Source of the DNA: an uncultured bacterium
GTDB taxonomy: Bacteria > Vulcanimicrobiota > CADAWZ01
DNA: 64,000 nucleotides
Reading direction: 5' to 3'
Assembly (NCBI GenBank): GCA_902790465.1
Contig: CADASF010000002.1
Location: 1-64,000, forward strand
The notes under the pieces were generated by a model. It had not been told where the DNA came from and ran no database searches. It saw nothing but the letters and a program-made list of their open reading frames with translations. This document shows positions 36,694 to 43,498 of the stretch, in pieces. Position 1 is the first letter of the stretch; every line of letters begins with the position of its first letter. The translations under genes were made by a program, and so were the position numbers.

Positions 36694-37686
36694 TTATTTT
36701 ACAGTTACTTTGAATGGAATATCAACAATTCCATAATCTGAAGTCAATCTAACAGAGTTTTTTGTAACTCCAATTGGAAGATTTTTTGTATTTATTACAA
36801 GTAAAACACTTCTCTCTTTTGTTACTTCTTTCAACTCATCTAATGGCTCATGGGCATATTCAGGATATATCAATTTGCAATCAAATGGAGTTTTTCCCTT
36901 ATTTCCAATTTTAAATTTTCCCCTTGCTTTTCTTCCTTTTTTGACTGTTCCTAAATCTAAAATTTTAGGAGATACAGTTATTATTGGATCATCTGGTCTT
37001 GCTTTTACTTTTATGGAAATAGGGACTTTTGTCATATCTCCAGATTCGTCTTTTAGAACAAGTTCTCCAGTATAAGTATCAGGTAAAAGTCTTTTCGTCA
37101 ATGCTCTGTAATAGAGATTAATTTTTTGTGTTGCTCTAATTTTTACCTCAGAATCTGCTATTAACCAATCTGGAAAAGATACTGAAAGATTGAGAATGCC
37201 AGAACCAATATTTTCTAAAACGATTTTATCAAGTGGATTTTCTCCTCTTTCAACTGTTCCAAAATCTATTGATTTTTTATCGATCTTCAAAATAGGATCA
37301 TTTTTTCCCTCAATAATCGTACAGGAGGCAATAGAAGTAATATCGCATTTTCCAATAACAGGACTATATTTTATATCTGCTTTATAGTCATTTGGATCAA
37401 GTAAAGCAGAATCAACAAAAAAAGAAATTTCCTTTTTTTCTTTTGGAGAAAGAGCTATCTCTCCAGGAGTTATTTTGAACCATTTTGCTTCTGAAGTTAT
37501 GCTTCCCAAAAAAGGTGAATCTGAATTGTTAAAAACTTCAACTATAAGTTTTTTGGTTTTAGGTCTCATCAAAACTCCAAAATCTATGTGTTTTTCAGAA
37601 ACTTCCAAATCTGCATATACAGGCAAAACTGACAATATAAGACAAAATATAAACATAAAATAAAATAAATTCTTATTTAAAACCAT
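36694..37686 (-). CDS. Secreted protein with three ASH/Hydin-like beta-sandwich repeats
   Basis: 330 residues, signal peptide (LFYFMFIFCLILSVLPVYA) and three domains each opening with a 'hIDFGxh' strand: VSEKHIDFGVL, IDKKSIDFGTVERGE and VSPKILDLGTVKKGRK. This is the ASPM-SPD2-Hydin/MSP-like Ig fold found in many bacterial envelope proteins. It may bind other surface proteins; no enzyme motif. ATG 37686 is preceded by GGAGGG; the frame upstream to 37737 has no ribosome site. It follows a small hypothetical gene by 57 bp on the same strand. Confidence 0.8.
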   Translation of the reverse strand: MVLNKNLFYFMFIFCLILSVLPVYADLEVSEKHIDFGVLMRPKTKKLIVEVFNNSDSPFLGSITSEAKWFKITPGEIALSPKEKKEISFFVDSALLDPNDYKADIKYSPVIGKCDITSIASCTIIEGKNDPILKIDKKSIDFGTVERGENPLDKIVLENIGSGILNLSVSFPDWLIADSEVKIRATQKINLYYRALTKRLLPDTYTGELVLKDESGDMTKVPISIKVKARPDDPIITVSPKILDLGTVKKGRKARGKFKIGNKGKTPFDCKLIYPEYAHEPLDELKEVTKERSVLLVINTKNLPIGVTKNSVRLTSDYGIVDIPFKVTVK

Positions 37687-37743
37687 ATTTTTTCCCTCCG
37701 AATATCTTAGAGACCTATAGAACAAAAAATATTTCATCAGAAA

Positions 37744-38052: not shown

Positions 38053-38236
38053 ACTGCCTCCGAAAAAATTATTTAAATCTTATTATACATCAATAAGAAA
38101 TCTAAATCAAGAAATAACTAAAGATAGATTTAATTGAAGGAAATTCAAAAATAAATATAAAATTTAATAATAGAATGGTGAATATTATATACATTTATAT
38201 ATTTTTGAATACTGATTTAAAGTGAGGTTGCGTTTT

Positions 38237-39445
38237 ATGGCAGGAACAAGATATGACATATTTCTCACAGTAGCGGCAAGAGGCGAAGTTTTATCATCAG
38301 AAGTACAAAAAATAACTGGAATTGAAAGAGATATGCAATTCAATCAAGATGTGCAGATACTTATTGTCAATAAATTGATTGAAAGAAGTGGAAGCATGCT
38401 AAAATTTCCACAAAATAGTGAAGATGCAAATCTTCTTTTTGATGTTCTTTCATTTGCATTGATGTATGATATAAATTATAACAATTACATATCAAGCCCA
38501 ATGATGATATTCTTGGAACAGACATACAATCAAAATTTCTTTACATTTTCATCAGTACAGCAATCACCAGAAGCAAAAACTTTAAATATTTCTATTTTAA
38601 AGAAAAATGGCTTCTTATTAATGTATGAAGAATCTCCACTTAGAGCAAAAATCATCCAAAATTCTTTTTTGGATTTAATCTTGAAGCTAAATAACAGAGT
38701 TCCTGAAAAAGAAAACAAAAAAATAAAACCACTCTCTGTTGAAAATATACTCATGGAAGAAATGATGAGAAAGCAAATGGTCGCAAAATTTGGTTCCATG
38801 AATACTCCAACTGAAGTAAAATATATAACAGAAGACGATCCAACTAAAGATATACAATTAAACTTGACTCCTCTTCAACAAGAAATGAAAAAAATTCTTG
38901 CTGAGAAAAATCCAGAGTCTCTGAATACAACATTCAAAGATAATTTTGAGAAGGCAAGCAAGTATATGAGAGAACAAGTTGCAAAAGGAAGACCTCTCTC
39001 AATAGAATTATTCATGGAATATCATAAACTTCTTATGAACGATCCAGAAATCGGTGGTATTTTCAGAACTGAACAAGTACAAATAGGTGGAAATCCATAT
39101 TTTAAAATATGTCCATACAAAAAAATCGAACAAACTCTCAAAAAATTGATTGAAAAATACCAAAAGGACAGTGCTAAATTTAAAGGGTTGCCTGATGTCA
39201 TAAAATTTGGTGCATTCTTACACAATGAACTACAACACACTCATCCATTTGTAGATGGAAATAGCCGTTTGACAAGACTTGTATTAGAGCATTTCTTCAA
39301 TCAAAATAGACTTCCAAATTATGAAATTCCACCTGCATATATAAGTAGATATACCCAATATACAAAAGGTGCAAGAAATAGGGACGACAATAAATTATTC
39401 AATTTATTAAAAGAAATATTTTTATTCCAACTTAAAAAAAAGTAA
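38237..39445 (+). CDS. Fic-domain protein (AMP-transferase type)
   Basis: 402 residues. N-terminal DNA-binding-like helical domain (YDIFLTVAARGEVLSSEVQKITG in part), a linker, and a C-terminal Fic fold with the active-site loop HPFVDGNSRLTR, which fits HPFxxGNGRxxR except for Ser in place of the second Gly. Fic enzymes transfer AMP or another phosphate-containing group to target hydroxyls. ATG 38237 is preferred (GAGG 9 nt upstream) over GTG 38222. First gene of a tight four-gene operon. Whether the Ser loop keeps AMPylation activity is unknown. Confidence 0.88.
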   Translation: MAGTRYDIFLTVAARGEVLSSEVQKITGIERDMQFNQDVQILIVNKLIERSGSMLKFPQNSEDANLLFDVLSFALMYDINYNNYISSPMMIFLEQTYNQNFFTFSSVQQSPEAKTLNISILKKNGFLLMYEESPLRAKIIQNSFLDLILKLNNRVPEKENKKIKPLSVENILMEEMMRKQMVAKFGSMNTPTEVKYITEDDPTKDIQLNLTPLQQEMKKILAEKNPESLNTTFKDNFEKASKYMREQVAKGRPLSIELFMEYHKLLMNDPEIGGIFRTEQVQIGGNPYFKICPYKKIEQTLKKLIEKYQKDSAKFKGLPDVIKFGAFLHNELQHTHPFVDGNSRLTRLVLEHFFNQNRLPNYEIPPAYISRYTQYTKGARNRDDNKLFNLLKEIFLFQLKKK

Positions 39446-39454
39446 ATAATTAAA

Positions 39455-40105
39455 ATGTATGTAGTAAATAATTGCAAAAATATAGGGTTAATAGCTGGAA
39501 TTATAACAGCAAGTGGCATAAAAATTGCTGAATCTGATGAGAACTTAAAATCAGAAATAAAGCAACTTGTAAAAGAAAAACAAAAAGAAGAAAATATTGA
39601 CAGAGAGCTTTTAACTTCTGTAAGAAAAATGTTAAAAAGTGGAGGTTATAAGCCCTCTGGACGAAATAAGCCTGCAAGTGAATATCTATTGAGGACAGTT
39701 TCAGAAGATAATTTTCCATTTATAAATAATGTAGTTGATATAAATAATTATTTTTCAATACTATGGGAACTTCCAATATCAACACTTGATTTAAATCAAA
39801 CTGGAGATAATATTTTTATTAAATTGGGGGTACAAGGTGAAAAATATATCTTCAATAAATCAGGTCAAGAACTTGATCTAAAAGGTTTGATAACTGTATG
39901 TAATTCAAAAGAAGAGCCACTTGGAACTCCTGTAAAAGATTCAATGCTTGGAAAAACAACTGAAAATACATCAGATATAATGGTAGTAATATATGCTCCA
40001 GCTGATAAAATAGATGAACTTCAAGTAGAAAAAATGTGCATGAAATATGCTGAAAAATTGAGAACATTTACGACTGCAACTGAAACTGCAACATTTACTG
40101 TATAG
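39455..40105 (+). CDS. Stand-alone B3/B4 tRNA-binding (editing-like) domain protein
   Basis: 216 residues with the B3/B4 pattern of phenylalanyl-tRNA synthetase beta subunits (GYKPSGRNKPASEYLLR; FPFINNVVDINNYFSILWELPIS in part). Free-standing relatives are thought to act on aminoacyl-tRNA or remain uncharacterised. It follows the Fic gene by 9 bp and precedes the ankyrin gene by 2 bp, so the products are probably functionally linked. A misacyl-tRNA clearing role is possible but unproven. Confidence 0.82.
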   Translation: MYVVNNCKNIGLIAGIITASGIKIAESDENLKSEIKQLVKEKQKEENIDRELLTSVRKMLKSGGYKPSGRNKPASEYLLRTVSEDNFPFINNVVDINNYFSILWELPISTLDLNQTGDNIFIKLGVQGEKYIFNKSGQELDLKGLITVCNSKEEPLGTPVKDSMLGKTTENTSDIMVVIYAPADKIDELQVEKMCMKYAEKLRTFTTATETATFTV

Positions 40106-40107
40106 CC

Positions 40108-40806
40108 ATGAAAGAAAATCAAACTAAAACCTATGATGTATTTATCAAAGGGGAAAGAAAAAAATATCTTTCAAAAACTGGTAAAAAAATAGAAAAATAT
40201 ATATCAGATACAGAAAATAACAATGGAGAATACAATTTTAAAATAGCAACAAATATTTCTCCTGCAGAAGTAAGACATCTTGAAAAAACACTAAAAAAAA
40301 ATAGCATTCCATTTGGAACATCTATTCATAAAGAAATAAAAAATTCAAAATCTCAAAAACAAAAGTTTGTAAGAAGTAATATAGCTCTTTATGAATCGCT
40401 AAAAAATAAAAAAGATTATAAAATATCAATAACAGATTACTTTTTTTTCTCAATATTGGTATTATTTGTAATAGTGGCAGGAATAAATGTGGTAACAGTG
40501 GAGAAAAAAGCATATACAGAAATGCATAGGTCTGTAATAAGAAGAGATAGAAATAAAATATTGAGAATACTTGAAAAACATCCAAATAGTGTATGTGTAA
40601 GAGATAAATATGGAAGAATTCCACTTCATTACCTGAGAACTGACGGTACTCCAGAAATATTGAGGATATTGACAGAAAATAAATCACCAATAAATACTAT
40701 AGATAATATGGGAAAAACTCCGATAGACTACATAGATAAAAATAAAAATAAAACACTATATTTCATGATGATAAAAAGTGGAGCAATTCCAAGAGGAGAT
40801 ATTTAA
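40108..40806 (+). CDS. Membrane-anchored ankyrin-repeat protein
   Basis: 232 residues. Basic cytosolic N-terminal half (1-110), one transmembrane helix (YFFFSILVLFVIVAGINVVTV, about 112-131, in part FFSILVLFVIVAG), then two to three ankyrin repeats (DKYGRIPLHYLRTDGTPEILRIL in part; DNMGKTPIDYIDKNKNKTLYFMM in part). Its topology is uncertain. Ankyrin repeats mediate protein contacts. Third gene of the Fic operon, with 2-bp spacing on both sides. Confidence 0.75.
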   Translation: MKENQTKTYDVFIKGERKKYLSKTGKKIEKYISDTENNNGEYNFKIATNISPAEVRHLEKTLKKNSIPFGTSIHKEIKNSKSQKQKFVRSNIALYESLKNKKDYKISITDYFFFSILVLFVIVAGINVVTVEKKAYTEMHRSVIRRDRNKILRILEKHPNSVCVRDKYGRIPLHYLRTDGTPEILRILTENKSPINTIDNMGKTPIDYIDKNKNKTLYFMMIKSGAIPRGDI

Positions 40807-40808
40807 AA

Positions 40809-41084
40809 ATGCTTTGGAAACATGACGAATCAAATAATTGTTGGATTCTAAATGATAACGAAGAAATAGCTTCAAAAATATACATAAAAATAAAAGAAAA
40901 TCAAATAAATAAATATATTGTAAGAACTCTTATTCATTCTGTATATTTGGGATGTAAAAAATTTCAAAAGTTAGAAAAAAGTGGAAAAGATTGGTATTCA
41001 AAAGTACGCAAATTTAAAACAAAAGAAGACATGGAAAAATATATTGAAACAAAAAAGCATGATATTCTAAAAATTGTTAAATGA
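40809..41084 (+). CDS. Small basic hypothetical protein of the Fic operon
   Basis: 91 residues, rich in Lys, Trp and Tyr, no signal or membrane helix. It starts 2 bp after the ankyrin gene and ends 53 bp before tRNA-Leu. No family recognised; basic character would suit nucleic acid or acidic protein binding. Confidence 0.65.
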   Translation: MLWKHDESNNCWILNDNEEIASKIYIKIKENQINKYIVRTLIHSVYLGCKKFQKLEKSGKDWYSKVRKFKTKEDMEKYIETKKHDILKIVK

Positions 41085-41137: not shown

Positions 41138-41220
41138 GCGGAAGTGGCGAAATGGCAGACGCGTCAGTTTCAGGAGCTGATATCCTTAAGGATGTATGGG
41201 TTCAAGTCCCATCTCCCGCA
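41138..41220 (+). tRNA. tRNA-Leu (anticodon CAG)
   Basis: Class II tRNA, 83 nt. Acceptor GCGGAAG with CTCCCGC (one A-C mismatch at position 5-68), anticodon stem TCAGT/GCTGA, loop TTCAGGA, so anticodon CAG for CUG codons. Long variable arm (ATCCTTAAGGAT) as in leucine tRNAs, T arm ATGGG-TTCAAGT-CCCAT, discriminator A73; CCA is not encoded. Confidence 0.92.
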
Positions 41221-41234
41221 TATTATTATAAAAG

Positions 41235-41273
41235 GAGCTGTGAAAAAAGTATTTTTTTCACAGTCTCTTTTTT
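41235..41273 (+). terminator. Terminator of tRNA-Leu
   Basis: Hairpin of GAGCTGTGAAAAAA with TTTTTTCACAGTCTC, then TTTTTT. The stem sequence is the same CTGTGAAAAAA motif that forms the ends of the repeat at 50086-50244. Confidence 0.8.
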
Positions 41274-41289
41274 ATATAATCTTCGTAAA

Positions 41290-41599
41290 TTAACTCGTTG
41301 TGCTAAATGTAAAAAAACAAGTAAATAAAAGTTGCTATAAACTATCCAATATATGCCTGTATACTGCCATTTTGTCATTGCGAGGGAGCTGTGCGACCGT
41401 GGCAATCTAAGCCTGTAAATTATTATTTACTTAAAAATTGAGTCGATTGCCTATATTTAAAATGCTGTATTCGGTCTATTTAATTTTTTCACAGCCCCTT
41501 TGTTTTCATGGGGATTTGAAAGCAGATAACAAACTATTATTTAATTTTTTCACAGCCACTTTGTTTCATGACTTATAAATTAACTCTTTGTGTTAGTTA
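41290..41599. repeat. Repeat-rich intergenic block
   Basis: The 806-bp stretch 41221-42026 has no gene. It contains TTAACTCGTTGTG (41290) and TTAACTCTTTGTG (41580), relatives of the hairpin at 13312; the REP-like unit 41331-41412; a direct repeat of ATTTAATTTTTTCACAGCC (41478-41496 and 41539-41557); and TGAAAGCAGATAACAAAC (41517-41534), which recurs at 50205. It looks like a landing site for small non-coding elements next to a tRNA. Confidence 0.7.
41331..41412. repeat. Palindromic intergenic repeat, copy 3 (inverted, long form)
   Basis: Flank (ACTATCCAATATATGCCTGT...) plus core GTCATTGCGAGG ... ACCGTGGCAAT (41374-41406). Reverse complement of 13342-13422 with only a few substitutions and a slightly longer loop. 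Confidence 0.8.
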
Positions 41600-41889
41600 T
41601 TTTTTAGATATTTAGCAGGTAAAAGAGTTTTTATGGTGTAATTCGGAGAACGATAAGTTTTTTTCATAGTAGTTTCTTGTACAATTAACACAATATATGC
41701 GGAAAAAAAGAACTAATTTTATAAAATGAGTTTGTAAAAAAAAGAACATGACTTATGTAAATATCTAAAATAGTAAAAAAAAAATTTAACATTTATACAG
41801 GGATAAAAAAAATAAAAAAAGAATATTTAAATAAATAAGTAATAAGTTACCTATATACCACCTGACCATTTTTAAAAAAACTTTTTCAG

Positions 41890-41917
41890 TTAACATTTTC
41901 TTAACAAAAAGTTAACA
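41890..41917 (+). promoter_or_regulatory. Three perfect TTAACA boxes at 11-bp spacing
   Basis: TTAACA begins at 41890, 41901 and 41912 with 5-nt spacers. Geometry and hexamer match Gram-positive Pho boxes and other OmpR/PhoB-family operators. A -10-like ATAATATAGG (41962-41971) follows 44 bp later, shared with the 24.9 kb gene. The downstream gene starts at 42027. Confidence 0.65.
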
Positions 41918-42026
41918 AAAAATATTCATTTTTAGTCTTTATTTTAAATAATAAACAAGTGATAATATAGGTAATAAATTATTATTTAAAAATTCTCATA
42001 AAAAGAATTATTTAGGAGGCATCATA

Positions 42027-43424
42027 ATGGTTAACTTTAATGTCAACTTCAATGCAATCATAAACAACTATGCTAATTTCGGTTCAAGCTTTGGTTATGG
42101 CAATATGTCTTCAATGCTTTCAGGTATGCTCGGTATGGGTGGAATGTATGGAATGAGCGGAATGTCTGGAATGTATGGCATGAGCGGAATGTACGGAATG
42201 AGCGGAATGGGCAATATGTTCGGAATGGGCGGAATGCAGAGCATGCTCGGTATGGGCGGAATGTTCGGTATGAGTGGCTCAATCAATCTTCCTATCTATG
42301 GATACTCAATGGGTAATGCATGGGCAACAACTCTCGATACAACACTTGGAAAGAGAGACCCAATCTATCTCGATACAAACCATGATGGTCAGCTCAATGT
42401 AGAAAAACTCAAAAAGAATATTAGTTTTGATATGAATGGCGATGGTATCGCAGATACAGTAAAAGAGTGGAACACAAAAGATGCTCAGCTCGTATATGAC
42501 AAAAATGGTGATGGTCAGATCAACAATGGTAGAGAAATGATGAACGAAGTTGGTCTCAATGGCGAGCAGAACAAATACAAAAATGGTTGGGAAAAAGCTC
42601 AAGATGTCTTTGATAAAGATAAAAATGGCTATATTGATGAAAAAGAACTTGAACAAGCAAAATTCTGGACAGATAAAGATGGTGACGGCAAAGTTGATGA
42701 AGGCGAAATGCTCTCAGCTAAAGAAATGGGAATCATCGGAATCGATACAAAGAATGGTAAATACATAGAGAAACAGCAAGTTGGCAACTTCAGCGTGAAC
42801 TTTGGCATGTATGGCAATATGGGCATGTTCGGTGGAATGGGCATGAACATGGGTGGATATGGTAACTATGGAATGCCAGCTATAGGCGGTGGATATGGTA
42901 ACTATGGCAACACATATGGCAACTATGGTGGCAACTATGGTACAGGCGGAGCATTTGGTAACTACGGTGGTGTAAATGGATACGGTGCTGGTAACTATGG
43001 TCTTGGTAACTATGGTTCAATAGGTACAGGTGCATATGGCAATCCATACATCGGTGGCGGATTGGATATAGGTTCTATAATCGGTGGAATCGGAAACATT
43101 GGTTATGGTGGTGAATATAGTCAGGAAATTCAGAAACTTGACCAGCAGATTCACAAATTGACATCAAAAGTTGTCAACCTTGAAGTTAAGCTCAGCGAAC
43201 TTGATACTGATAGCAAGGGTATCATGGGAATGATTAACAAATCAAAAGCCAAAAAGATCAAAAAACAGATCAAATCATTAGAGAAAAAGATCCAGAGACT
43301 CAATCAGGCAAAGCAAAAAGTAATGCAACAGGCTATGGGATTGGGAAATAATGGTGGAATCAACACATCTTATGGCAACGGATATGGCAACAATGGTCAT
43401 GTATTCTTGGGATTCGGTTTCTAA
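42027..43424 (+). CDS. Met-Gly-rich / EF-hand / Gly-Tyr-rich coiled-coil protein
   Basis: 465 residues in distinct zones. Residues about 26-92: a Gly-Met-x triplet repeat (GMSGMYGMSGMYG...). About 115-226: five Asp-rich calcium-type loops, two of them canonical EF-hand loops (DKDKNGYIDEKE, DKDGDGKVDEGE) and three variants (DTNHDGQLN, DMNGDGIAD, DKNGDGQIN). About 253-360: Gly/Tyr/Asn-rich low complexity (GNYG repeats). About 365-435: Lys-rich coiled coil. The tail again carries GYGN. No signal peptide or membrane helix. Ribosome site AGGAGG is strong, and codons end in C or G far more often than in neighbours, suggesting high expression. I know no described family with this layout. Calcium binding is well supported; methionine clusters could bind Cu(I), and the Gly/Tyr zone could drive self-assembly. 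Confidence 0.8.
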   Translation: MVNFNVNFNAIINNYANFGSSFGYGNMSSMLSGMLGMGGMYGMSGMSGMYGMSGMYGMSGMGNMFGMGGMQSMLGMGGMFGMSGSINLPIYGYSMGNAWATTLDTTLGKRDPIYLDTNHDGQLNVEKLKKNISFDMNGDGIADTVKEWNTKDAQLVYDKNGDGQINNGREMMNEVGLNGEQNKYKNGWEKAQDVFDKDKNGYIDEKELEQAKFWTDKDGDGKVDEGEMLSAKEMGIIGIDTKNGKYIEKQQVGNFSVNFGMYGNMGMFGGMGMNMGGYGNYGMPAIGGGYGNYGNTYGNYGGNYGTGGAFGNYGGVNGYGAGNYGLGNYGSIGTGAYGNPYIGGGLDIGSIIGGIGNIGYGGEYSQEIQKLDQQIHKLTSKVVNLEVKLSELDTDSKGIMGMINKSKAKKIKKQIKSLEKKIQRLNQAKQKVMQQAMGLGNNGGINTSYGNGYGNNGHVFLGFGF

Positions 43425-43452
43425 GTTAGATTTTAAAAATGAATAGATAATG

Positions 43453-43485
43453 GAAATCCTTCATCAAAATTTGGTGAAGGATTTC
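43453..43485 (+). terminator. Hairpin after the Met-Gly protein gene
   Basis: GAAATCCTTCA (43453-43463) with TGAAGGATTTC (43475-43485), extended by two further pairs. No clear T tract follows, so it may act as an mRNA-stabilising end. Confidence 0.6.
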
Positions 43486-43498
43486 TTATGTTTATATC

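Follow-up and report, generated by a model that had tools for sequence, protein, structure and literature searches.

FrpC, a meningococcal RTX protein, carries a rare self-processing module (SPM) that cuts its host protein at Asp414–Pro415; the chemistry of this module comprises a Ca2+-triggered Asp–Pro cleavage and an isopeptide linkage to lysines (PMC7078468). Four Ca2+ sites (D419–G424 together with D456, D462–E474, D499–D511, and D521–E532) and a Trp pair (W451/W519) have been described in the module; D478 and D579, located near the scissile bond, are non-catalytic and bind a fifth Ca2+ ion, D478 being the proposed ligand of this ion, which is bound transiently at the scissile bond (PMC7078468). 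The FrpC SPM has been put to use as NeissLock (PMC7846742, PMC12538545), and no strand is needed before its cut site, a position that accepts fusion to arbitrary proteins (PMC12538545). In the literature searched, demonstrations of SPM chemistry were confined to the RTX exoproteins FrpC, FrpA, and ApxIVA and to homologues at 60% identity or above, and no report of a protein from the lineage studied here was found. In the present work, a gene located in a 64,000-nucleotide stretch of DNA from an uncultured bacterium (the whole stretch analysed is referred to as the window) was compared with these systems.

Results

Gene and genomic surroundings

The gene (42,027–43,424; forward strand, like its parts and its flanking signals given below) encodes a protein of 465 amino acids plus the stop codon. 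An AGGAGG ribosome-binding site lies 7 nt upstream of the ATG (42,014–42,019), and a stem–loop resembling an intrinsic terminator follows the gene (43,452–43,486). With a tRNA gene (41,138–41,220) and a terminator-like site upstream, the gene is solitary. The approximately 760 very AT-rich bases between that terminator-like site and the gene (41,265–42,026) contain no listed ORF and gave no match in Rfam; the tRNA was the sole Rfam match in the surroundings of the gene. In the window, as in the sister genus (L026), the gene precedes ffh, while the context differs in L028, thus the neighbours give no pointer to function. Farther upstream (38,222–41,084), genes for a Fic-domain protein, a B3/4-domain protein, a protein with a weak ankyrin match and a likely membrane segment, and a 91-aa orphan are oriented in one direction, and the Fic-domain, B3/4-domain, and ankyrin genes occur in the same order in a sister genome (L027). 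An exported-looking protein with HYDIN/ASH-type Ig domains, which are otherwise best known in eukaryotic ciliary proteins, is encoded at 36,694–37,737.

An earlier note on this DNA, made from the sequence alone, had deduced abundance of the protein in part from its codon bias. The codon adaptation of the gene to the ribosomal proteins of the genome is 0.69, which ranks it only 41st among the 55 genes of the window (median 0.71), and the ribosomal genes do not stand out themselves (mean only 0.71). Codon usage is therefore uninformative on abundance, and this deduction is not supported.

Layout of the protein and its low-complexity flanks

The ORF, the Gly-Met units, the five Ca2+-type loops, and the Gly/Tyr/Asn zone listed in the earlier note were all found, together with a predicted helical hairpin, and the zone layout is kept in sister genomes. 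The N-terminal Met-Gly segment (aa 1–110, 42,027–42,356) contains 21 Met, 26 Gly, and a single Lys (K109), and its first 103 residues include no D, E, K, or R. Gly-Met pairs occur 21 times in the protein, 15 of them within aa 1–110, compared with a mean of 7.7 and a maximum of 17 in 2,000 shuffles of the same composition. The zone rich in Gly, Tyr, and Asn (aa 263–360, 42,813–43,106; 40 Gly, 14 Tyr, 13 Asn, and no Lys) is predicted to be disordered. It is followed by a lysine-rich helical hairpin (aa 362–438, 43,110–43,340), confidently predicted in the full-length AF2 model at 362–391/399–438, with 16 Lys within aa 361–440, and by a Gly/Asn tail ending in HVFLGFGF (43,347–43,421). The same model predicted disorder at residues 1–87, 260–360, and 440–465 and a folded core between them. 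The hairpin is kept in a sister species (G001, contig C95) and missing from the next genus, consequently, it cannot be essential to the function of the core.

In the flanks, Gly is constant and its partner residue varies: Met in the family of the window protein, Phe in L028 (GGFGGFGGFG), Pro or Tyr in L015, and aromatic residues in L037. This variation speaks for a generic sticky, uncharged chain. Two SPM-like proteins have extreme low-complexity arms: in one (L015:826–2556), PGPYPGPGPYPGPG repeats precede the R-D-P module, and the other (L116:616–2493) has long SGSGST repeats. The genome of the window also encodes a second, unrelated Gly-Met protein without an SPM core, whose long QGMPNM/QGMPDM repeats run to the contig ends (G000:C65:11–151, L005; C52:17166–17333, L006).

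The calcium-binding core

The region between the flanks (aa 111–262, 42,357–42,812) is almost certainly homologous to the Ca2+-dependent SPM of FrpC, as sequence, profile, and fold searches agreed on this assignment. When PDB chains were searched with the single sequence, the FrpC SPM (6sjw/6sjx) was the best match (E 3e-6), ahead of every calmodulin, and residues 112–254 of the query aligned with residues 1–143 of the chain. A profile built from ten family members matched the FrpC SPM at E 8e-24, and this alignment starts exactly at the scissile Pro, with the Pro at profile position 32 lying on chain residue 1. The AF2 model of aa 83–276 (pLDDT 85, pTM 0.78) retrieved only 6sjx and 6sjw from the PDB at E ≤ 0.001 (7e-5 and 2e-4, respectively; probability 1.00). 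The overall similarity of the model to the FrpC SPM is moderate (TM-score 0.45–0.48, rmsd 11 Å), the TM-scores thus indicating a diverged fold. No Pfam family model spanning the whole SPM-like domain was seen.

A motif scan detected five D-x-[DN]-x-[DN]-G loops, starting at D116, D135, D158, D196, and D216. Four of them align with the Ca2+ sites of FrpC: D116–G121 (42,372–42,389) with D419–G424, D158–E170 (42,498–42,536) with D462–E474, D196–E207 (42,612–42,647) with D499–D511, and D216–E227 (42,672–42,707) with D521–E532. The DxNxDG loop D135–G140 (42,429–42,446) is present in the FrpC sequence too, outside its four named sites. D152 is the counterpart of D456, which is joined to the first Ca2+ site, Trp148 (42,468–42,470) and Trp214 (42,666–42,668) correspond to W451 and W519, and Glu174 (42,546–42,548) occupies the position of D478. 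In FrpC, the scissile bond is bent over beta-14 (D579–L582), where the module ends; this C-terminal part has no clear counterpart here, and a different strand (aa 245–262) follows in its place. A conserved strand (aa 81–100, LPIYGYS..AW, 42,267–42,326) precedes the cut site, and its LPIYxY...AW motif is predicted to be part of the folded core. This strand would pair with the 245–262 strand and might keep the clipped segment anchored.

The loops D196 and D216 match the full 12-residue EF-hand pattern, and Pfam EF-hand models score above their cut-offs. Independent EF-hands were nevertheless rejected, since the profile (8e-24) and fold searches place the loops in one SPM-type domain. The AF2 model consists mainly of strands and short helices rather than paired helix–loop–helix units, and the fold search of the PDB gave no significant match to an EF-hand structure. 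The novelty claimed in the earlier note is consequently refuted for the calcium zone, which belongs to a characterised family, but not for the flanks. Its proposal of a Ca2+-gated, possibly self-assembling protein remains a fair guess, except that the loops are parts of a single FrpC-SPM-type domain.

The cut site and its conservation

The counterpart of the FrpC cut site is Asp111–Pro112 (42,357–42,362), the only Asp–Pro in the protein, in the context R-D-P. Relatives were found in 29 of the 149 genomes of the phylum surveyed; 97 related ORFs were collected, and 10 proteobacterial ones from plasmids were included as well. The tree, containing 103 rows, was built on the core with the residue before the Pro excluded. 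This residue is Ser in 68 rows, Asp in 27, Thr in five, and Glu in three. Since the Pro is kept without the Asp in most relatives, it must be of structural importance by itself, and the presence of Asp–Pro alone is no proof of cleavage. On the tree, the Asp is clustered (7 changes vs. 24 in shuffles): it is found in all 11 members of the clade of the window protein (SH-aLRT 98), whose cores have diverged to approximately 40% identity, and in 16 of the 18 members of the wider branch, so it reads as a trait retained in this clade. Asp–Pro was also found in seven of the ten proteobacterial SPM-like proteins fetched. A near relative (L014:949–2004) has Thr–Pro at the cut position together with His-rich and Ala/Ser-rich stretches, and is a candidate for natural loss of the cut site.

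By a simple hydrophobicity rule, all but two of the Asp–Pro proteins of the phylum lack a signal peptide, and many of them have low-complexity flanks. Most Ser–Pro relatives resemble Sec-signal proteins and extend only a short way past the core; a sister clade (L016, L017, L063–L067, and L070) is signal-less and of low complexity, yet has Ser–Pro. Glu at the place of D478 was seen in ten Asp–Pro proteins vs. two Ser–Pro proteins in a motif scan in which many Ser–Pro rows were unscored, so a link of this Glu with Asp–Pro is suggestive only. The secreted SPM-like family is large across the phylum, with as many as nine SPM-like matches in a single genome. The genome of the window itself encodes three more such proteins with Sec signal peptides and Ser–Pro or Glu–Pro (L002, L003, and L004, at G000:C5:182907–183242, C1:98808–99269, and C17:15212–15535, respectively).

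Export

Sec export of the window protein was rejected, as neither a signal peptide nor an in-frame upstream ATG was found; the lack of an export signal noted earlier, in line with the uncharged first 103 residues, was thus borne out. Genes of HlyD type (HlyD_3) and TolC type (OEP) are present in the genome. In a genome search for the HlyB-type exporter, the best score was 400 bits, compared with the cut-off of 725. The sequence contains none of the nonapeptide repeats GGxGxDxUx, and no hemolysin-type repeat was among the Pfam matches listed. Membership in the RTX family was rejected on the grounds of the missing repeats and the lack of an HlyB-type exporter above the cut-off in the genome.

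Discussion

The best explanation of these data, and one we hold to be somewhat favoured, is a small, non-RTX, low-complexity “clip-and-link” protein built around a FrpC-SPM-type core. Its parts differ in strength. Given the homologous core and the retained Asp, Ca2+-dependent cleavage at D111–P112 is probable. A meaningful Asp–Lys linkage, proposed by analogy with FrpC, is possible but on balance doubtful; the lysine poverty of the N-terminal segment lends it little support, because this feature is not peculiar to the Asp–Pro group. A cross-linked material and the route of export are conjectural.

The reaction might proceed as follows. In the cytosol, the module would be unfolded, because the Ca2+ level would be too low for a domain with the affinity of the FrpC SPM, about 150 μM (PMC7078468). 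High Ca2+ would be met after export by a conjectural route or after lysis, the latter being the only possible trigger for a protein that stays inside the cell. The module would then fold round four Ca2+ ions and put strain on D111–P112, which would be cut via an aspartyl anhydride. The cut would free the 111-residue Met-Gly segment with K109 as its sole lysine, and the new N-terminus would be PIYLDTNHDGQLNVEK. The C-terminal Asp of the freed segment could join nearby lysines, such as those of the module or the hairpin, either in the same or in a neighbouring molecule. The uncharged Gly-Met and Gly-Tyr zones could hold the molecules together, by which the short-lived anhydride would meet a partner and linkage could compete with hydrolysis. 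In its furthest extension, which we regard as unlikely, the protein would be the first of a new kind of protein material that is genetically encoded and cured by Ca2+: uncharged low-complexity Gly-Met/Gly-Tyr chains would condense and then be locked covalently by the internal self-cutting module through Asp–Lys isopeptide bonds. Its export would require neither Sec nor RTX signals, and its source would be an uncultured lineage with rumen bacteria among its members.

The strongest alternative is a module that still folds with Ca2+ but has lost its cutting activity. Stabilised by calcium, it would serve as a structural knot that links the two disordered low-complexity zones of a cytosolic or surface scaffold. 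The Ser–, Thr–, or Glu–Pro of most relatives, showing that the fold is widespread without the reactive Asp, and the missing counterpart of the bond-straining part of FrpC (D579–L582) agree with such a role. However, 11/11 members of the clade and 16/18 members of the wider branch have kept the Asp, and the place of D478 is taken by an acidic residue, hence we consider this alternative fairly unlikely.

A Ca2+-gated intracellular condensate held by aromatic and Met stickers without covalent chemistry, the model put forward in the earlier note, would suit the predicted disorder of residues 1–87, 260–360, and 440–465, the extended Gly-rich stretches that lack charge and include aromatic residues, and the lack of an export signal. 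It is improbable, though, as cytosolic Ca2+ would be far below the about 150 μM needed by the FrpC SPM (PMC7078468), the module is homologous to a FrpC domain that acts outside the cell, and the sticker residue varies among relatives. Cu(I) binding by the Met clusters, also suggested there, is scarcely credible as a function despite the 21 Met of the N-terminal segment (aa 1–110), because Met is not conserved: same-clade relatives have Phe, Tyr, or Leu instead. The zone pairs Gly with Phe in L028 and with aromatic residues in L037.

If the clip-and-link reading is true, the natural role of SPMs would widen from attachment to host cells to possible matrix building, and the family would offer distant, compact modules for protein ligation of the NeissLock type.

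Among known systems, the EF-hand/calmodulin superfamily (PF00036, PF13405, and PF13202) resembles the window protein in the 12-residue pattern matched by two of its loops, but the Pfam matches span single loops only and the predicted fold is that of an SPM, not of paired EF-hands. The Sec-signal SPM-like proteins of the phylum (L002, L004, L018–L020, L022, and others) share the same core with the W and the DxNxDG loops, but they have a signal peptide and Ser–Pro and lack a low-complexity arm after the core. The FrpC SPM is the closest counterpart: the domain is homologous, Asp–Pro occupies the equivalent position, the four Ca2+ sites and the Trp pair recur, and the position of D478 is acidic. 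In contrast to FrpC, the window protein has neither RTX repeats nor a type I exporter over the cut-off, the module resides in a 465-aa low-complexity protein instead of a large exoprotein, its C-terminal strand is different, a conserved strand precedes its cut site, and its host lineage lies outside the Proteobacteria genera carrying proven modules. The FrpC-type module itself is known; new is the host of this distant SPM, a low-complexity protein outside the RTX family.
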